Source of the DNA: Candidatus Gemmiger faecavium
GTDB taxonomy: Bacteria; Bacillota; Clostridia; Oscillospirales; Ruminococcaceae
Assembly (NCBI GenBank): GCA_019114415.1
Contig: DXFO01000003.1
Span: 29,258 to 93,257, forward strand
Reading direction: 5' to 3'
DNA length: 64,000 bases
Shown: positions 17,916 to 57,199 of the stretch, one piece after another
How positions within the stretch are numbered: position 1 is the stretch's first letter
How the letters are laid out: each line of letters opens with the position of its first letter
Program-made: the position numbers and the translations under genes
Notes under the pieces: generated by a model
The model's input: the letters and a program-made list of their open reading frames with translations, nothing else
What the model was told of the DNA's origin: nothing
Databases searched by the model: none

Positions 17916-20906
17916 ATGGATGAAACAAGAGAGAAGAAAAGACAATTCAAGCGCGCTTACAAAAAGGCAAAACGCAAGGCACTGGGTCCCTGGAAAGTGC
18001 TGTGCATCCTCTGCCTGGTAGTATCGCTTGTGGCAACGCCGCTGTATGCGGTTTTGCATGTATTCGACAACACGGTCGCGGCCTTTGTGGGCGGCACCTT
18101 CTGGCAGCTGGAGAACGAGGACCCCGGCGCCCAGTATTTTACCTCGGACTTTGATACGGCAGAGGAAATGGTCGACTACGGCCTGGAACTCTGCGAGCAG
18201 GTGGAGGCCGAAGGCGCGGCCCTGCTGCTGAACAATAACAGCGCTCTGCCTTTGGCCTAGGGCGCTGCGGTCAGCTGCTTTTCCACCTCCTCCGTCAACC
18301 TGGTCTACGGCGGCACCGGTTCCGGCAACATCGATGCATCCAGCGCCGACACCCTGAAGGACGCGCTGGAAAAGGCTGGATTCTCGGTCAATGAGACGCT
18401 TTGGAACTTCTACACCGAAGGCCCCGGCAGCGAGTACCTGCGCGTGGGCGGCACCGGCGTCCTGTCCACCGGTGCAGAGATCAACGAGGCTCCCTGGAGC
18501 GTCTACACCGAGGACGTGATCTCTTCCGTTTCGGAGTACGGCGATGCAGCCATCGTGGTCCTGTCCCGCGTCGGCGGCGAAGGCGCGGACCTGAGCTATC
18601 AGGGCACCAACTACCTGGCTCTCAGCGACGTGGAAAAGGAAATGATGCAGAACGTCATGTCCCTCAAGGAACAGGGCGCTGTGGATAAGATCATCGTTCT
18701 CATCAACTCGGCCAACCCCCTGCAGGTCGATTTCCTCAAGAACAATGATTATAATGTAGACGCCTGCCTGTGGATCGGCGACGTGGGCATTTCCGGCATC
18801 AATGCCGTGGCCGAGATCCTTTCCGGCGACGTCAACCCGTCCGGCAGCCTGGTGGATACCTACTGCTACGACAACCATTCTTCGCCCGCCATGCAGAACT
18901 TCACCCCCATCACCTACGAGGGCTACACGGAGGGCATCGTCCCCGCAAATGCCAGCACCTATATGATCTATCAGGAAGGCATTTACGTCGGATACAAATA
19001 TTATGAGACCCGCTACGAAGATGTGGTTATGGGCACCGGCAACGCCGGCGACTATGCCTATGCCGACACCGTGGCGTTCCCCTTTGGCTACGGCCTGAGC
19101 TACACCGACTTTGCTTACAGCAACATGCAGGTGACTTATGACGCAGTGGCCGACCAGTTCCACGTGGCAGTCACCGTCACCAACACCGGCGATACCTACG
19201 CGGGCAAGGAAACGGTGCAGATCTACGCCCAGAGCCCCTACACCGACTACGACAAGGAAAACGGCGTTGAGAAAGCCTCCGTCACCCTGGTAGGCTTCGG
19301 CAAGACTGCGGAACTGGCTCCCGGTGCATCGGAGACGCTGGACATTGTGGTCGGGCGCCGCGACATTGCTTCCTTTGATACTTACGGCATCGGAACCTAT
19401 ATCATCGAGGCAGGGGACTACTACCTGACTGCCGCAACGGATGCCCACAATGCGGTCAATAACATTCTGGCGGCCAAGGGCTATACCGTCGCCAACGGCA
19501 TGACCGAGGACGGCGACCCCGCCCTGACCTACACCTGGAACGAGGCTGTTCTGGATGCGGCTTCCTACGCTACCAGCGAGAACGGCACCCCCATCACCAA
19601 TCAGCTGTCCGATGCAGACCCCAACCTGTACGCGGGTCTCGATACTCAGGTTACCTGGCTGAGCCGCAGCGACTGGACCGGCACCTTCCCCAGCCAGCCG
19701 GTGCAGCTTGCTTTGACGGAGCAGCTGACCGCAGACCTGCAGGACGTCCAGTATGATCCTGCCGACTACGAAACTGCCACCATGCCCCGTATGGGTGCGG
19801 ACAACGGCCTGCGTCTGTATGACATGATCGGCCTGGAGTACGACGATCCCCAGTGGGAGACCCTGCTGGATCAGCTGACCTTTGACGAGATGGTCTCCCT
19901 GATCGGCGACTCCTTCCACTGGAGAATGCCCGCCAAGTCCATCGAAGCTCCCGGCACCCGCGATGAGAACGGCCCCCAGGGCCTGACGGCTTCGCTGCTG
20001 GGCTCCGGTGCAACGCAGCTTACCGCCACCGCTTTCACTTCCGAGGACGTCATGGCGGCGACCTTCAACACCGACCTGATGTACCAGATCGGCAACGTCA
20101 TCGGCAACAACTGCCTGCAGGCGGACATTGTATGCCTGTACGGCCCCGGCAACAACATCCACCGCACGCCCTACGGCGGCCGTAACTTCGAGTACTACTC
20201 CGAAGATGGCTTCCTGTCCGGCAAGATGTCGGCCTACGAGGTCAAGGGCATCCAGGATAAGGGCGTCGATGTGGTCATGAAGCACTTCGCCCTCAACGAC
20301 AGTGAGCAGGACCGTATCGGTCTGGGCGTCTGGCTCAACGAGCAGGCCGCCCGTGAGGTCTACCTGAAAGCCTTCCAGGCTCCCTTTGAGGAGGGCAACG
20401 CCAACGGCGTCATGACCGCCTACACCCGTTGGGGCGCCACCTGGTCCGGCGGCAACAAGGGCCTGATGACCAACATCATGCGCGGAGAATGGGGCAGCGA
20501 CGGCATGTCCATCACCGACAACGTCCTGACCACTTATGTCAACGGCGTGGACGGCATCATGGCCGGCGGCGTTACCACCTTTGACGCCATGCTGCCTTAT
20601 GTCACCGACCAGCTTCCCAAGTACAAGGATGACGCGGTCATCGTCAACGCCATGCGTGAGGCCTGCCACCGCAACCTGTATGCGCTGGCCAATTCTTCCG
20701 GCATGAACGGCGTCGGTCCCAACACCACCGTCAAGCTGACCCGTCCCACCGTGGTCACCATGGCACAGATCATTTCCTGCGCAGCGATCTTCTTCATGCT
20801 GCTCTCCGCGGTGCTGTGGGTGCTGGGCGTCCGCAAATTCCGCAAGACGGAAGAGTATAAAGCGTTCAAGGCTTTCAAGGCACAGCGCAAGGCTTCCAAA
20901 GGCTGA
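17916..20906 (+). pseudogene. Membrane-anchored GH3 beta-glycosidase interrupted by an in-frame TAG
   Basis: One open frame of 996 codons is broken only by TAG at 18258-18260 (codon 115); 61 sense codons link it to the next in-frame start at 18444. The domain order is permuted. The GH3 C-terminal domain comes first (about 80-390, containing the stop), then an Fn3-like domain (about 390-510), and the GH3 catalytic domain last (about 630-940) with likely nucleophile Asp868 in GMSITDN. Such permutation is known in Ruminococcus albus and Butyrivibrio beta-glucosidases. A membrane helix near residues 26-50 and another at the C-terminus (IISCAAIFFMLLSAVLWVLG) suggest anchoring at both ends. Without readthrough, the product would be a 114-residue fragment plus possibly an N-terminally shortened enzyme from 18444. 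Assembly error or strain-level pseudogene are both possible. Confidence 0.85.
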
Positions 20907-21326: not shown

Positions 21327-21355
21327 TTGATTTCCTACTGTTTTTATAGTAAAAT
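21327..21355 (+). promoter_or_regulatory. Promoter of the M60 peptidase operon
   Basis: TTGATT at 21327-21332 and TAAAAT at 21350-21355 with a 17-bp spacer, about 115 bp before the GTG start. Confidence 0.7.
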
Positions 21356-21469
21356 GCCTGTGCACTCAATGAGGAAATAATCTTAAAAAAGCAGCCCCGA
21401 TCTTAGCCAGGAGTGATGCCGTTTTGACACGGCAGCTTTTGGGGCGGATACAGAAAGGATGAAATCCAA

Positions 21470-24400
21470 GTGAAAAGAGCCATCGCCACATTGCTGAGCT
21501 TTTGCATGATGCTTTCCATCATGGCACAGGTCTCGGTTGCGCGCGCGGAGGAAATGCCCGTGTCCGATCTTGCGGTACAGCAGACGGAAGTTTCCGAACA
21601 GGAAGCAGGGCAGAGCGAGGATGCGGTGTCGGAAGACACCGAGCCCCGTGCGGCTACTTCGGAGACTGCTGCTGAAGAAGAACTTGCAGAAGCGACCCCC
21701 TCCCAGGAGGATGAACTTTCCGTCAGTCTGATGGCGGAAGAGGAACCGGAGGAGGAACCCGCCGCGGAGGAGCTGGGGGATATCTCCGGTGTCGAAGTTT
21801 CCCTCCTGTCGGCCCTGACCCTCTACCGGGATGTCGACTTCAACGTCGCCATCTACCGCGGAAAGGAACTGGTCGATGAAAAAACGGCAACTCTTTCCGC
21901 CAACACCCAGGGGAGCGCCCCTGCTTCTCAGTCGGTCCGCTTTTCCGACCTGGCCAACGGCACCTACACCCTGGCCGTCAGCGGAAGCGGGTTCGAGACC
22001 TATAAACAGGAGCTGACCGTTCAGGATAACGTGGCTTCGGTCCAGGTATACACTTCCTTCCTGGCCGGCTTTACATACAGCGACGATCAGCTCCATCCCG
22101 GTACTCTCATCATCGGTGACGCCACCGATGACGGCTCTGTGGATCAGGAGGACGTCGACACCATTGTCGATCAGATCCAGGCGGGCAAAAATGAGGCCGG
22201 CGACCTGAACGGCGACGGCGTCGTCGATCTGGTGGACCTGCAGCTGCTTGCTGCGGTCTATCAGGATGGCCGGGACAATCTTTCCTCGGTAACCGCCCGC
22301 GTTTCCGAGAAGATGGCCCAGACCGGCACTGCCGAAGGCACCTCGGTAACCGGCGGCAGCCTGGAAGAGGTCATCGCCGGTACCGGCACCGTCTCGCTGC
22401 AGAACAGCAGCAGCGAGGCGATCTCCGAGGCAAACCCCGTCGAGGTCAGCTTCGACTTCACCTCCAAGCAGGAGACCGTCCAGATGGGCGGCATGGTCAT
22501 CCAGACCCCGGCTGACAGCGGCAACGCCATCAGCAGCGCGGAGGTGACGGTGGAATATGTGGACCTGGAAACCGGTGAGACCGGGACCCTGCCCCTGACC
22601 ATCGGCGGTGTGGCAGTGGCCCGCGCACGGGGCGCCAGCGCTCAGGTGGGCGCCGACGGTTCCATCGTGCTGGACTTCGGCAGACAGATCGCCGTCAAGA
22701 AAGTTACCATCAAGGTGACGGCCACGGCGGACAACACCAACCTTGCCGAGATCAGCAAGGTGGAGTTCGTCAACAATATGGAAAACCACATCCCGGCCCC
22801 CGAGATGAACATTCCCTCCGACCTCTCGGCGGAGACCGGCAACAAGTCCTTTACTCTGACCTGGAGCAAGGAGACCAACGTCACCGGCTACGAAGTCAAG
22901 ATCGCCCAGGGTGGCAAGGAAGAGGTTATCCGTACCTCGGTCAACAGCCTGTCGGTCACCACCTTCGGCGGTGCCAAGCTGGAAAACGGCACTCAGTACA
23001 CCGTCAGCGTCCAGTCCGTCAATGGCGAGTGGCGCAGCGGTTACAGCGAGTCCATCACCGTCACCCCCAAGGCGGACAAGATCCCCGCAGCTCCGGACGG
23101 CCTGACCCTGACTGGCCGCTTCCAGCGCATCGATGCTTCCTGGCTCTCTTCCAAGGATGCCGACAGCTATAATGTTTACTACCGCAAGCAGGGGGACGAG
23201 GCTTTTGCCAGCACCACGGGTGTTACCGGCACCAGCCTGACCATCCGCAACCTGGAAAACAACGCCAAGTATGAAGTTTATGTCACGGCCGTCAATGAAC
23301 TGGGTGAGAGCCCGGCTTCGCTGACTTCCGTTGTCAGCACCGCCAATGTCACCCCGGTGAACATGCCTTCCTATAAGCTCATCAACACTCCGGAGTCGGC
23401 TGGTGTTCCCAGCAGCCGTGTTGTCAAGGCGACCCATTCGTCCGGCTACATGAAGGACAGCCCGCTGGATTCCGGCAACAGCGCCTGGGGCATTGTGGAC
23501 GGTGACTTTACTTCCTGGTACGCCCTGGACGACTGGGATGACGGCGCGATGTACCCCGACGAGGGCGGTGTCCGTGTGACCTTCGACCAGAAGTATCACA
23601 TCGGCAGCATTTCCCTGACCCAGATCGAAGACTACGGCTATTATCAGAACGTCCGCGTCTTTGCCCATAACGCCGAGGGAAAAGAGTATCAGGTTCCCGG
23701 CGTCAGCATTACCAAGCACGGCGACGGCAACGGCCGCTACTACTACACCATCAAGATCGCAGGCGGTGTTGAGACCGATTATCTCCGCGTCTGCGTGGGC
23801 CACCAGTATAACTACCGGAGCATCACCATTTCCGAGATGCGCTTCTATGCCTACGACTCTCTGGAGGCGGACATTCTGGCGCTGTACGGCGACGACCTCC
23901 ATGTCACTCTGGCGGAGGGTGTCGACGAGGAAACCATCAATGCACTGGAAGAGCGCCTGAACACCCGGGACAATGGCGAACTCCATCCCGACTACAACAA
24001 GCTCAAGACCGAGCTGGACAATGCCCGCGGTCTGCTGCTGGAGTCTCTCAATGATGTGGTTTCCATCCACACCTCCATCACCGCACAGAGCGACGGTCAC
24101 CTGGGCATCAACGGCCTGAACGCATGGCAGCCCCTGGGCGTGACCGCCCATGCAGGGGAGGAGCTGGTCATCTACGTGGGCAGCAGCACCGGCACCACCG
24201 GCAGCAACGCGGCTCTGCAGCTGATCGCTTCCCAGTACAATGCCGAGTACGGCCAGGTCGTTTCCAAGCCCATCCAGCTCAAGGTCGGCCGCAACGAGAT
24301 CATGGTCCCCGACCTGGTCAGCTTTGACGCGGAGCACGGCGGTGCGCTGTATGTGCAGTACACCGGCGCCAGCAACGCGGCACAGTATTCCGTCCGTGTC

Positions 24401-26746
24401 AGCGGCGGCGTCAAGATCCCCACCCTGGACCTGTACGGCATCGACGATGCCGGCCAGCGCCTGGAACTGGTCACCGCCTACATGGAGGAACTGGAGACCT
24501 ACACCGCACAGCTGGAGGAACAGCACAACAGCACCCATAAGGATTCCGGCATTGCCGCGGTGGATCACGATTACAATGCACAGGAGTGCATCCTGAACAC
24601 CACCGACATCGTTCTGGATCAGATGATGCTTTCCGTCCCGGCATCTCAGATCCTGGCAGGCCTCAGCAGTGACAACACCGCGGCCCGTGCCCAGGAACTG
24701 CTGAACTCTCTGGATGCCATGGATCAGATGATGATCCTCTTCTACCAGCATAAGGGCCTGACCAATCTGGCGGACGCTGGCGCCAAGAACCGTCTGCCCG
24801 CCCAGCATCTGAACATCCGTTACATGCGTATGTTTGCAGGCGCCTTCATGTATGCCGCCGGCAACCACATCGGCATCGGCTGGGATTCCGTCACCGGTCT
24901 GTCCCAGGGCAATCCCGTTGTCCTCAACGAGGACGGCACCTACGCCAGCGGCAACTTCTTCGGCTGGGGCATTGCCCACGAGATCGGCCACAACATCAAC
25001 AACAACAAGTACACGGTGGTCGAGGTCACCAACAACTTCTTCTCCCAGATCTCCCAGATTTCGGAAGGCGTACGCTTCAGCTACGATGACGTCTACAAGA
25101 AGGTCACCAGCGGCACCAAGGGCCATTCCGACAACGTCTTTACCCAGCTGGCTCTCTACTGGCAGCTTCACCTTGCCTACGACACCAGCTACGAGTACGA
25201 GATCTACGACAACTACAAGGATCTGTTCAACGGACGCTTCTTTGCCCGTGTGGACACCTATGCCCGCAACCCGGCGGCTGCGCCCAACAACGGCACGGCC
25301 CTGACCCTGGGCGGAGATGCGGACCAGAACCTGATGCGCCTTGCCTGCGCGGCGGCGGAGAAGGATCTGACCGATTTCTTCCAGCGCTGGGGCATGACTC
25401 CCGACCAGACCACGGCTGCTTATGCCGCACAGTTTGAGAAGGAGACCCGCGCCATCTACTACGTCAACGACGATGCCCGTGACTACGCCTTCACCCATGA
25501 CGCCTCCGCAAGCATTGCCGGCCAGTCCGTCATGAGCGGGGAGACCACGGCAGTCGTGGACGAAAAGACCCCCAACCAGGTCAACCTGACCCTCCAGAGT
25601 ACGGTGGACAGCGGCCTGCTGCTGGGTTACGAGATTTCCCGCGTCACCTATGAAAACGGCAAGGCCCAGACCGAGGTCGTCGGCTTTACCACCGGCGACA
25701 GCTACACCGACACCATCACCACGGTGAACAACCGCACCGTGACCTATGTGGTCACTGCGGTGGATAAGTTCCTCAACCGTTCCGAGAGCCTGACCCTGCC
25801 CACCGTCAAAATCAGCCATGACGGCAGCCATGACAAGTCTCTGTGGACCGCTGCCACCAACATGGTTTCGGAGCAGGATCACACCCACGACGCCACCGAG
25901 AGCGATCCCTGCGAGCCGGAGACGGAATCCGCCATCCGCTATGTCATCGACAACAGCAAGTCCACTACCTTTGTGGGCAAGGCGGAATCCGGCCAGGCCA
26001 TTGTCACGCTGGACTTCCACAAGAGTCTGGCTGTGACCGGCTTCAAGTACACCGTTACCTCCGGTACGCCCATCGAAAACTACGAGATTCAGATCACCAC
26101 CAACGGCAGCCAGTGGACCACGGTTGCCAGCGGCACCTTCACCGACGATTCCGTCAACGTGGTCTACTTCCGCAACCAGAACAACGATCCGTGGGTCGCT
26201 ACCTATGATGCAACGCAGATTCGCCTGATCGTCAAGACTCCTGCCAACACCGAGATCTCCATCAGCGAGCTGGATGTCCTGGGTCCCACCGGCGACAACG
26301 TCGAGCTGCTGGCCAATGGCATCGGCTACCTGGAGAGTGAATACCGCTTTGCCGAAGGTGACGGCAACGTCATCCCCGCAGGCTCGCTGATCTTTACCGG
26401 CGAGTACAAGGGCAACCCGGCTTACAACGTGGTGCTTCTCTACGACCAGGACGGCAGCCTTGTGGGCGGTGTGGACAGCGACGGCGACCTGCGTGCCCAG
26501 CAGATCATCCTGGCGCCCGATCCGGGCAACGGGGAACTGGGTGAGGTCAGCGACGGCATCTGGGTCTACTGGATCGAACCCGGTGACCTGGAAGGCTTCA
26601 CGCTGCCCGACTCGGTGCGCGCCGAGCTGTACCGCGTGGACAACGCCATCACCAACGAAGGCCAGCGTCTGACCGCGGACACGCTTCTGGTGGAACTGCC
26701 GGAAGAGCTTCCCACCATCACCATTGCGTCTGACAATGCAGACTGA
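21470..26746 (+). CDS. Secreted multi-domain M60-family peptidase with dockerin (mucinase-like)
   Basis: A 1758-residue secreted protein with a GTG start after AAAGG. Order: signal peptide (1-26), Glu/Ala-rich acidic linker (27-105), beta-sandwich resembling an X-module (106-200), dockerin-like pair of Ca-binding repeats (216-265; GDATDDGSVDQED and GDLNGDGVVDLVD), a further beta-rich domain (about 290-435), two Fn3 domains (about 440-630), an F5/8 C (CBM32-like) domain (about 650-800), the M60 region (about 865-1330), and another F5/8-like domain (about 1470-1610). The zinc motif is HEIGH (1170-1174) with the third ligand Glu1185, matching the M60 rule HExxH(8-28)E. M60 peptidases with CBM32 modules cleave mucin-type O-glycoproteins in gut commensals and pathogens. 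No membrane or LPxTG anchor is seen, so retention may use the dockerin. Confidence 0.88.
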   Translation: MKRAIATLLSFCMMLSIMAQVSVARAEEMPVSDLAVQQTEVSEQEAGQSEDAVSEDTEPRAATSETAAEEELAEATPSQEDELSVSLMAEEEPEEEPAAEELGDISGVEVSLLSALTLYRDVDFNVAIYRGKELVDEKTATLSANTQGSAPASQSVRFSDLANGTYTLAVSGSGFETYKQELTVQDNVASVQVYTSFLAGFTYSDDQLHPGTLIIGDATDDGSVDQEDVDTIVDQIQAGKNEAGDLNGDGVVDLVDLQLLAAVYQDGRDNLSSVTARVSEKMAQTGTAEGTSVTGGSLEEVIAGTGTVSLQNSSSEAISEANPVEVSFDFTSKQETVQMGGMVIQTPADSGNAISSAEVTVEYVDLETGETGTLPLTIGGVAVARARGASAQVGADGSIVLDFGRQIAVKKVTIKVTATADNTNLAEISKVEFVNNMENHIPAPEMNIPSDLSAETGNKSFTLTWSKETNVTGYEVKIAQGGKEEVIRTSVNSLSVTTFGGAKLENGTQYTVSVQSVNGEWRSGYSESITVTPKADKIPAAPDGLTLTGRFQRIDASWLSSKDADSYNVYYRKQGDEAFASTTGVTGTSLTIRNLENNAKYEVYVTAVNELGESPASLTSVVSTANVTPVNMPSYKLINTPESAGVPSSRVVKATHSSGYMKDSPLDSGNSAWGIVDGDFTSWYALDDWDDGAMYPDEGGVRVTFDQKYHIGSISLTQIEDYGYYQNVRVFAHNAEGKEYQVPGVSITKHGDGNGRYYYTIKIAGGVETDYLRVCVGHQYNYRSITISEMRFYAYDSLEADILALYGDDLHVTLAEGVDEETINALEERLNTRDNGELHPDYNKLKTELDNARGLLLESLNDVVSIHTSITAQSDGHLGINGLNAWQPLGVTAHAGEELVIYVGSSTGTTGSNAALQLIASQYNAEYGQVVSKPIQLKVGRNEIMVPDLVSFDAEHGGALYVQYTGASNAAQYSVRVSGGVKIPTLDLYGIDDAGQRLELVTAYMEELETYTAQLEEQHNSTHKDSGIAAVDHDYNAQECILNTTDIVLDQMMLSVPASQILAGLSSDNTAARAQELLNSLDAMDQMMILFYQHKGLTNLADAGAKNRLPAQHLNIRYMRMFAGAFMYAAGNHIGIGWDSVTGLSQGNPVVLNEDGTYASGNFFGWGIAHEIGHNINNNKYTVVEVTNNFFSQISQISEGVRFSYDDVYKKVTSGTKGHSDNVFTQLALYWQLHLAYDTSYEYEIYDNYKDLFNGRFFARVDTYARNPAAAPNNGTALTLGGDADQNLMRLACAAAEKDLTDFFQRWGMTPDQTTAAYAAQFEKETRAIYYVNDDARDYAFTHDASASIAGQSVMSGETTAVVDEKTPNQVNLTLQSTVDSGLLLGYEISRVTYENGKAQTEVVGFTTGDSYTDTITTVNNRTVTYVVTAVDKFLNRSESLTLPTVKISHDGSHDKSLWTAATNMVSEQDHTHDATESDPCEPETESAIRYVIDNSKSTTFVGKAESGQAIVTLDFHKSLAVTGFKYTVTSGTPIENYEIQITTNGSQWTTVASGTFTDDSVNVVYFRNQNNDPWVATYDATQIRLIVKTPANTEISISELDVLGPTGDNVELLANGIGYLESEYRFAEGDGNVIPAGSLIFTGEYKGNPAYNVVLLYDQDGSLVGGVDSDGDLRAQQIILAPDPGNGELGEVSDGIWVYWIEPGDLEGFTLPDSVRAELYRVDNAITNEGQRLTADTLLVELPEELPTITIASDNAD

Positions 26747-26764
26747 TTGAAAAAGGAGAACGAC

Positions 26765-27709
26765 ATGAAAAAAATGTTTGCCACCCTGCTGTTTGGCAGT
26801 GTGCTTGCGGTCACGGCTCTTGCCGTGCCGGCACAGGGCAGCGGCGAGGTGACGCTCAGCGCCAGCTCCGGCGGCGCACAGGTCAGCCTGGAAATGCCTG
26901 CGGACACGGTGCAGGATGTTACCACCATGCACATGAGCTTTGTGATAAGTTCCGACGCAGACATCAGTGCAAACTTTGATTTTAACGATGCGCTGAAGAG
27001 CAGCGTGCAGGAATCCCGTTATGAAAACGGCCGCCTGGACGTTTTCATCTCGGGCAGCCAGAATATCTTCACCGACGGTACCCTCAATCTGGGTGAGGTC
27101 CTTCTCACCACCGCCGACGGTACGGCGGCGCAGGCAACGGTCAGCGTGGATGGGGATTCCATCGAGCTTCTCAACGCGGCGTACGGCAGCCCTGAGATGC
27201 CGGAGATCGCCCCTGTGGAGGCAGAAGTGAGTGTCAGCGGAACGAACTCCGGTTCCGGCGGCGACAACGGGAACAACTCCGGCAACGGCGGCTCGGGGAA
27301 CCAATCCGGCTCCGGAAACAGCTCCAATTCGGGCAATGGTTCCAACGGCTCCCAGAGCACCACGGCACAGAGCGAAACCTCCGGCGTTACGGGCGGCACT
27401 TCGGTGACCACGCCCGCGACCCAGAACGGCGGTTCTTCTTCCGGCCAGAGCGGTAGCTCCAATAAGGGCAACTCCGCCACGGCCACGCCCGACCCGGAAA
27501 GCACTTCCTCTCCCGAGGAAGAGACTTCCCGGCCGGACAACGCGGAGAACACCAAGCCGGAAGGCCAGACAGAGGCAGCTTCCACCCCGGAGCAGGCCAC
27601 GGACGAACAGCAGCAGAGCAGCGGCTTCCCGCTGATGCTCATCGTTGCGGTGATCGCTGTACTTGCCATTGCGGCAGGAGTCGTCATCTTCATCCGCCGC
27701 CGCAGCTAA
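26765..27709 (+). CDS. Tail-anchored surface protein with cohesin-like domain
   Basis: A 314-residue protein starting at the ATG at 26765 behind AAAGGAG, only 18 bp after the M60 stop, so the two are an operon. A signal peptide (about 1-23) leads into a beta-rich domain of about 125 residues. Its strands and late DGTLNLGEVLLTTADG region recall the cohesin/CBM3 jelly-roll. Next come about 130 residues of Gly/Ser/Asn/Thr-rich and Pro/Glu-rich linker, one C-terminal membrane helix (PLMLIVAVIAVLAIAAGVVIF) and RRRS as stop-transfer. The layout is that of a cell-surface scaffold: folded domain, long stalk, membrane anchor. The cohesin assignment is by eye and uncertain; a carbohydrate-binding domain of the same fold is the main alternative. 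Confidence 0.7.
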   Translation: MKKMFATLLFGSVLAVTALAVPAQGSGEVTLSASSGGAQVSLEMPADTVQDVTTMHMSFVISSDADISANFDFNDALKSSVQESRYENGRLDVFISGSQNIFTDGTLNLGEVLLTTADGTAAQATVSVDGDSIELLNAAYGSPEMPEIAPVEAEVSVSGTNSGSGGDNGNNSGNGGSGNQSGSGNSSNSGNGSNGSQSTTAQSETSGVTGGTSVTTPATQNGGSSSGQSGSSNKGNSATATPDPESTSSPEEETSRPDNAENTKPEGQTEAASTPEQATDEQQQSSGFPLMLIVAVIAVLAIAAGVVIFIRRRS

Positions 27710-27747
27710 CCTGCAAAAGCCCGCACTCGTGAGTGCGGCAGCCCAAT

Positions 27748-27798
27748 AAAAAAGCAACACCGGTCAGACGAAACCGTCCGGCCGGTGTTGCTTTTTTT
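27748..27798. terminator. Bidirectional terminator after the M60 operon
   Basis: A 16-bp stem (27748-27763 with 27782-27797) with A6 and T7 at its ends. A separate perfect palindrome, CCGCACTC/GAGTGCGG, precedes it at 27721-27738. Confidence 0.9.
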
Positions 27799-27806
27799 AT
27801 TTTGGT

Positions 27807-56651: not shown

Positions 56652-56727
56652 GCGGCCGTAGCTCATCTGGTAGAGCGCCACCTTGCCAAGGTGGAGGTAG
56701 CGAGTTCGAGCCTCGTCGGCCGCTCCA
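56652..56727 (+). tRNA. tRNA-Gly (GCC), copy 1
   Basis: 76 nt with CCA; acceptor GCGGCCG/CGGCCGC, anticodon loop TTGCCAA in stem CCACC/GGTGG. Confidence 0.97.
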
Positions 56728-56730
56728 TTT

Positions 56731-56806
56731 GGGAGTTTAGCTCAGCTGGGAGAGCATCTGCCTTACAAGCAGAGGGTCAGCGGTTCGAGCCCGTTAACTC
56801 CCACCA
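56731..56806 (+). tRNA. tRNA-Val (TAC)
   Basis: 76 nt with CCA; acceptor GGGAGTT/AACTCCC, anticodon loop CTTACAA. Confidence 0.97.
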
Positions 56807-56810
56807 ATGT

Positions 56811-56887
56811 GGCCCGGTAGTTCAGTTGGTTAGAACGCTAGCCTGTCACGCTAGAGGTCGTCAGTTCGAGCCTGATTCGGGTCGCCA
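56811..56887 (+). tRNA. tRNA-Asp (GTC)
   Basis: 77 nt with CCA; acceptor GGCCCGG/TCGGGTC with G-U pairs, anticodon loop CTGTCAC. Confidence 0.96.
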
Positions 56888-56890
56888 TTT

Positions 56891-56966
56891 GCCTCTGTAG
56901 CTCAGTTGGTAGAGCAGGGGACTGAAAATCCCCGTGTCATTGGTTCGATTCCGATCGGAGGCACCA
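56891..56966 (+). tRNA. tRNA-Phe (GAA)
   Basis: 76 nt with CCA; acceptor GCCTCTG/CGGAGGC, anticodon loop CTGAAAA. It is the tRNA sensed by the pheS T-box. Confidence 0.97.
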
Positions 56967-57000
56967 AACCCACGTACCCTTGGGTCAAAGGGTACAATAT

Positions 57001-57076
57001 GCGGCCGTAGCTCATCTGGTAGAGCGCCACCTTGCCAAGGTGGAGGTAGCGAGTTCGAGCCTCGTCGGCCGCTCCA
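57001..57076 (+). tRNA. tRNA-Gly (GCC), copy 2
   Basis: Identical to copy 1 over all 76 nt. Confidence 0.97.
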
Positions 57077-57092
57077 GAACAAACAGTGAAAT

Positions 57093-57114
57093 ACCGGCTT
57101 CCAAGCCGGTTTTT
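57093..57114 (+). terminator. Short hairpin and T-run inside the tRNA array
   Basis: ACCGGCTT/AAGCCGGT (57093-57100 with 57103-57110) followed by TTTT, between tRNA-Gly copy 2 and tRNA-Cys. Confidence 0.65.
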
Positions 57115-57124
57115 CACTAATTAT

Positions 57125-57199
57125 GGTGACGTGGCCAAGTGGTAAGGCAAGGGTCTGCAAAACCCTCATTCACCAGTTCAAATCTGGTCGTCACCTCCA
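57125..57199 (+). tRNA. tRNA-Cys (GCA)
   Basis: 75 nt with CCA; acceptor GGTGACG/CGTCACC, anticodon loop CTGCAAA. It lies just 14 bp after an internal terminator-like hairpin, with no room for its own promoter. Confidence 0.96.

Follow-up and report, generated by a model that had tools for sequence, protein, structure and literature searches.

Gene pair encoding an M60 peptidase and its putative surface receptor

The analysed stretch of Candidatus Gemmiger faecavium DNA (the window; 64,000 nucleotides of contig DXFO01000003.1) encodes a large M60 peptidase followed on the same strand by a small putative surface protein. We consider it likely that the peptidase, which carries a predicted N-terminal X-dockerin, is docked on the cell surface by this dedicated, membrane-tailed receptor with a predicted cohesin domain, encoded 18 bases downstream. 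The peptidase gene (21470..26746, + strand) has a GTG start, encodes 1758 amino acids and matches Peptidase_M60 with an E-value of 2.8e-12. Its Peptidase_M60 domain (PF13402; residues 1084-1308, 24719..25393) scores 47.2 bits in Pfam against a cut-off of 25.8 and contains a HEIGH zinc motif (residues 1170-1174, 24977..24991) with Glu1185 (25022-25024) downstream. HExxH and a downstream Glu are the defining features of this peptidase clan. An earlier sequence-only reading had described the motif as intact, and His1170, Glu1171, Gly1173, His1174 and Glu1185 are indeed invariant in 10/10 aligned M60 sequences (window included). Of the accessory modules described in that reading, Pfam recovers fibronectin type III (Fn3; two stretches, including residues 449-531, 22814..23062) and one F5/8 type C (CBM32-like) domain (residues 1484-1568, 25919..26173; 29.4 bits, cut-off 28.2), while a second CBM32-like module at residues ~640-800 is seen by eye. 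A Sec-type signal peptide is apparent by eye on both proteins, and the C-terminus of the peptidase lacks a membrane helix according to hydropathy (best 19-residue mean 0.74), in agreement with the proposal that the enzyme has no anchor of its own. Family membership suggests mucin as the substrate; PMC13188911 reports that an enzyme assigned to M60 cleaves glycosylated MUC1 and MUC2, and it names Gemmiger among the sources of an M60 mucinase.

The second gene (26765..27709, + strand; 314 amino acids; 54 homologous proteins at E ≤ 1e-3) starts with ATG 26765, and the 18 bases between the M60 stop and this codon (26747..26764) contain the ribosome-binding site AGGAG; the mechanical open reading frame (ORF) start is an earlier TTG at 26747. 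As anticipated, the encoded protein appears to be secreted and comprises a single beta-domain, the predicted cohesin (residues 24-158, 26834..27238), a stalk rich in Ser, Gly, Asn and Pro (residues ~159-287, 27239..27625) and a C-terminal membrane helix (residues ~288-310, 27626..27694; mean hydropathy 3.29 over 19 residues) with a cationic RRRS tail. A terminator scan detected no terminator-like site between the two genes. An inverted repeat followed by a T run (27750..27799, + strand), read from the sequence where the scan lists only a minus-strand site, is a likely terminator. Upstream of the peptidase gene lies a promoter-like site, TTGATT-17-TAAAAT (21327..21355, + strand), with 9/12 consensus matches, which is weak evidence by itself. 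A 2125-residue frame antisense to both genes (21383-27760, - strand) was treated as a spurious by-product of coding composition.

Predicted folds of the cohesin-like domain and the X-dockerin

An alignment of 33 domains homologous to that of the small protein (A4) served as input to AlphaFold2. The resulting model has ten strands and a predicted local distance difference test (pLDDT) value of 94.6, and it shows the jelly-roll fold of solved cohesins. In Foldseek the first 16 PDB matches of the model were cohesins (E-values 6e-6 to 1.7e-4, template modelling (TM) scores 0.54-0.67), as were 34 of the 36 matches at E ≤ 1e-3, the other two being different proteins. A VIA comparison returned cohesins in 49/50 rows with Z up to 12.0, one of which, 2o4e, we take to be a cohesin. 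These models point to a cohesin fold, as the sequence-only reading had conjectured, and the domain would represent a cohesin family missed by the Pfam profile: searches of Pfam, NCBIfam and the PDB (phmmer) gave no cohesin or related sequence, and the families matched by the 33 members at E ≤ 1 include neither PF00963 (Pfam Cohesin) nor any recurrent family. An hmmsearch of the PDB with A4 yielded two matches (best 0.47), which were discarded as unrelated proteins.

On the side of the peptidase, a pair of dockerin-like repeats had been recognised previously. The repeats are present, each with a calcium loop and a helix (residues ~214-266, 22109..22267), yet the predicted docking tag is more than this pair alone, being an X-dockerin dyad that extends over residues ~104-266. 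Its X module (residues ~104-205, 21779..22084) is a predicted beta-sandwich of the carboxypeptidase-regulatory/PEGA type, matching CarboxypepD_reg in 32/32 and PEGA in 31/32 aligned members at E ≤ 1, and the AlphaFold2 model aligns with the X part of type II X-dockerins. Dockerin_1 matches all 32 members (window included) at E ≤ 1, with a best value of 3.2e-9, and Asp217/228 and Asp245/256 are invariant in 32/32. The predicted dockerin model contains two helices, and type II X-dockerins make up the entire top ten of PDB matches that Foldseek gives for the predicted X-dockerin fold.

Co-occurrence of dockerin and partner

PF13402 searches of 120 relatives and of 393 genomes of the class were made independently of partner presence. 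Among the relatives, 17 of 19 matches are dockerin-bearing, and 17/17 are followed by a cohesin-like next gene; the two remaining M60 genes, both of G095, have neither dockerin nor partner. At this locus (L070) the two M60 genes stand in tandem, with no dockerin and no cohesin-like neighbour. In G001 the M60 gene is cut by the contig and was counted as dockerin-bearing, its N-terminal half being taken to lie on contig C92, which has an X-dockerin match; in G065 it is split into two ORFs, which were searched apart. The class-wide search gave 37 matches, from which four already counted (the window's own, G084 and two of G095) and four below the cut-off were subtracted. Of the 29 further matches, 12 are dockerin-bearing and 12/12 have a partner, which is the next gene in 11 cases (gap -4 to 207 bases) and fused to the C terminus of the same chain in one, whereas 0/17 frames without a dockerin at E ≤ 1 have one. 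Combined, a cohesin-like partner accompanies 29/29 dockerin-bearing M60 genes (28 as the next gene, one by fusion) versus 0/19 dockerin-lacking ones; owing to the common descent of these genes, the counts are not independent trials.

As several of the partners are divergent, the profiles were built anew with each partner group omitted in turn. Every partner was still found (E 5e-23 to 0.039), the weakest class-wide one, at L083, with the latter value. With the full partner profile (1842 ORFs of 34 loci), the best ORF of the dockerin-lacking loci reached E 1.2. When compared with A4 as a group, the 15 divergent partners gave an hhalign probability of 94.6. Two weak matches of the partner search were rejected: L013, which is antisense to a TpiA-like ORF, and L014/L026, which lies among pilin-like genes and has E-values of 0.04 and 1 with two profiles. 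The frame at L026 (11534-12100, - strand), in a genome without an M60 match (G009), ends in a partner-like stalk and membrane tail and is possibly a remnant.

A named collection contributed 33 loci, nine of which are contigs already counted (2000-base probe identity, 9/9). Of the remaining 24, L055 and L056 stop short of where a partner would lie; 21 of the 22 left have a partner by profile. Three of these 22 could not be scored for the dockerin: the contig of L036 begins within the gene, the gene of L057 is broken and L059 is not readable at this position. The other 19 are additional dockerin-bearing M60 loci whose downstream sequence can be read, and 19/19 have a partner, that of L037 only in part (contig end) and that of L061 by resemblance to L054 only. 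Carriers include Gordonibacter (Actinomycetota), Blautia schinkii, Enterococcus lemanii, Anaerofilum, a Faecalibacterium metagenome-assembled genome and a Lachnospiraceae bacterium. The pair is also present in the cultured strain Gemmiger gallinarum DSM 109015 (L034). With the stated provision for L061, no dockerin-bearing M60 gene with readable downstream sequence was found to lack the partner. The pair looks like a two-gene docking module conserved across Bacillota and Gordonibacter in dozens of genomes, rather than the unusual arrangement for a commensal that had been expected.

Anchoring of the partner proteins

Among 49 partners, hydropathy indicates a C-terminal membrane helix in 37, ten of which also match a loose LPxTG-like pattern; four carry SLH domains and one CWB2, so that 42/49 have a membrane helix, SLH or CWB2. 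The type of anchor differs between lineages while the cohesin-like domain stays. A C-terminal helix of their own is absent from the dockerin-bearing M60 proteins at L066-L089 (0/17) and from 34 further M60 proteins of the dockerin-bearing branch (0/34), and is present in 4/19 dockerin-lacking ones. A natural fusion at L087 (5873-12154, + strand) encodes all three domains (X-dockerin, M60, cohesin-like) in one 2093-residue frame, which supports a functional link between the cohesin-like domain and the X-dockerin.

Exclusivity of the pair

The X-dockerin profile (A5) has one strong match in the window genome, a 2.5-Mb draft that is 92% complete (E 2e-56; next 0.18). The cohesin profile (A4) has one match in this genome, and PF00404 has one weak match, inside the M60 protein. 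One cohesin and one dockerin enzyme were found in this draft, and not the several of either kind that characterise a mucinolysome or cellulosome. Likewise, each of the 13 genomes of the window's family has one strong match per profile (E ≤ 1e-23), with weaker A5 matches in several. One further dockerin protein exceeds the Pfam cut-off in each of G004 (C1:2009298-2009465, in a frame of 2955 amino acids), G026 (C1:2249793-2249960, 344 amino acids) and G034 (C6:83229-83396, 320 amino acids), and weaker ones occur in G022 (C34), G008 and G032.

Proposed function and alternative explanations

A predicted docking tag on the enzyme and an adjacent predicted dock with a likely membrane tail make it likely that the peptidase is held at the cell surface. 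The small protein would be kept in the membrane by its C-terminal helix, and its Ser/Gly/Pro-rich stalk could raise the cohesin through the wall. There, the cohesin would capture the X-dockerin, with calcium probably occupying both loops (Asp217/228 and Asp245/256), and the docked enzyme would face outward, its M60 catalytic domain and its Fn3 and CBM32-like modules exposed to mucin. Binding between the two partners is suggested by their genetic linkage, and we infer calcium dependence and surface display of the pair. The sequence-only reading is largely supported: its main points hold, but its scope was too narrow. It seems probable, with somewhat less confidence than for the window pair itself, that a new cohesin family and an N-terminal X-dockerin form a one-enzyme, one-receptor system throughout the dockerin-bearing M60 branch of Bacillota and Actinomycetota and explain how anchorless M60 enzymes are retained on cells. 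M60 peptidases act on mucin-type glycoproteins, and some of them have no visible anchor. A conserved partner beside dockerin-bearing M60 genes would answer how such enzymes stay on the cell, provide a genetic marker for a class of surface mucinases and supply natural candidate cohesin/X-dockerin pairs for binding work.

Several observations weigh against surface docking by a dedicated cohesin. PF00963 has no match in the window genome at E ≤ 10. Comparison of A4 with 30 PF00963 cohesins by hhalign gave 23.2 and 27.5 in the two directions, versus at most 18.0 for nine control domains; this sequence likeness to Pfam cohesins is at best suggestive. Two divergent partner groups, taken singly, match A4 with a probability of 6-7%. 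Comparison with the PF00963 cohesins gives no match for the divergent groups, which reach 17.6 at most (13.7 for all 15 partners together). The Dockerin_1 match of the window M60 protein (12.8 bits, E 0.14) is below the Pfam cut-off of 22.9, and the case for the dockerin consequently rests on relatives; the M60 dockerin exceeds the cut-off in 9/13 genomes of the window's family. Distance-matrix (mirror-tree) partial correlation, controlled for the catalytic domain, amounts to 0.21 between cohesin and dockerin versus 0.44 between cohesin and X module; it does not single out the dockerin and was not counted as support.

The remaining contrary observations bear on specific alternatives. Seven of the 49 partners have no recognised anchor: four of these terminate, as judged by eye, in fn3-like repeats, and the other three have nothing recognised (two of the three were scanned with Pfam). 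The L087 fusion also has no anchor that could be seen by eye and is the best argument for the cohesin-like protein binding the X-dockerin to give a stable enzyme complex, as a latch or a chaperone-like or multimerising link, with anchoring being secondary in some lineages. We regard this as improbable, though less so than the other alternatives, given the anchors of the 42 other partners and the constancy of the cohesin-like domain while the anchor type changes. Surface docking on a dedicated receptor could also be part of a larger, mucinolysome-like complex, in which additional dockerin proteins use the cohesin or additional cohesins take up the dockerin. The additional dockerin proteins of G004, G026 and G034 point in this direction, as do the multi-scaffoldin mucinolysomes of Limousia (PMC12997984, in part) and the PF00963 matches in 9/12 class-wide genomes with dockerin-bearing M60 (G144, G172, G249, G282, G339, G348, G364, G443 and G484), which make a one-to-one pairing less clear in those genomes. 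Such a complex nevertheless appears very unlikely with a single cohesin and a single dockerin enzyme found in the 92% complete window genome and one strong match to each profile in the 13 family genomes. Finally, jelly-rolls are common, two of the 36 best fold matches are other proteins and no family matches at sequence level, but that the small protein is an unrelated jelly-roll surface protein sharing the operon, with the dockerin-like repeats as a calcium-binding spacer, is hardly credible when cohesins dominate the fold matches and the partner tracks the dockerin in M60 loci (29/29 versus 0/19).

Neighbouring features

Just upstream of the M60 gene lies a GH3-type glycosidase frame (17916-20906, + strand) in which GH3_C precedes GH3_N and hydrophobic segments are visible by eye at either end. 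In this assembly the frame is interrupted by a single in-frame stop (18258-18260), which represents either an assembly error or a real break. An Rfam scan of the 64-kb window found tRNAs only. Six tRNA genes (Gly, Val, Asp, Phe, Gly, Cys) are clustered at 56652-57199 (+ strand).

Comparison with known systems

No report of the M60/cohesin gene pair was recognised among the matches listed from the open-licence PMC literature, which consisted mostly of titles and abstract openings. PMC13188911 contains neither 'cohesin' nor 'dockerin'. M60-like/PF13402 proteins (Nakjang 2012, PMC3267712, in part) share the peptidase domain with CBM32 and Fn3; passages of that study report a dockerin in 2/415 proteins and mark Clostridium and Bacillus examples '?-anchor' in a figure, while 'Cohesin' is absent from its main text and the passages describe no partner gene.

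The cohesin (X82)/dockerin glycoside hydrolases of Clostridium perfringens (PDB 2jh2, 2vo8, 2w1n) share the cohesin fold and the presence of dockerins on secreted glycan-active enzymes. According to PMC12997984, each of the five cohesin proteins of C. perfringens has a glycoside hydrolase domain as well; in the pair described here, by contrast, the enzyme is an M60 peptidase, and the cohesin belongs to an anchor protein that is not catalytic. The same source describes the Limousia mucinolysome, in which cohesins and dockerins likewise assemble a mucin-degrading complex of gut bacteria and one scaffoldin (cSca5) is wall-anchored. This complex differs from the window pair in being multi-scaffoldin and multi-enzyme; the main text of PMC12997984 uses neither 'M60' nor 'Gemmiger'.

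The predicted fold of the docking tag matches the X-dockerin dyad of cellulosomal type II cohesin/X-dockerin complexes (Clostridium thermocellum CipA 5g5d and 2b59; A. cellulolyticus ScaA 4wi0), in which the payload is likewise joined to a cohesin on the cell side. In cellulosomes, the X-dockerin sits on a scaffoldin carrying many enzymes, whereas here the enzyme itself carries it, close to the N terminus, and it is matched with one cohesin. The parts are known in kind, while a module that dedicates one receptor to one enzyme and uses a cohesin family missed by Pfam appears to be new and widespread rather than an oddity of Gemmiger.
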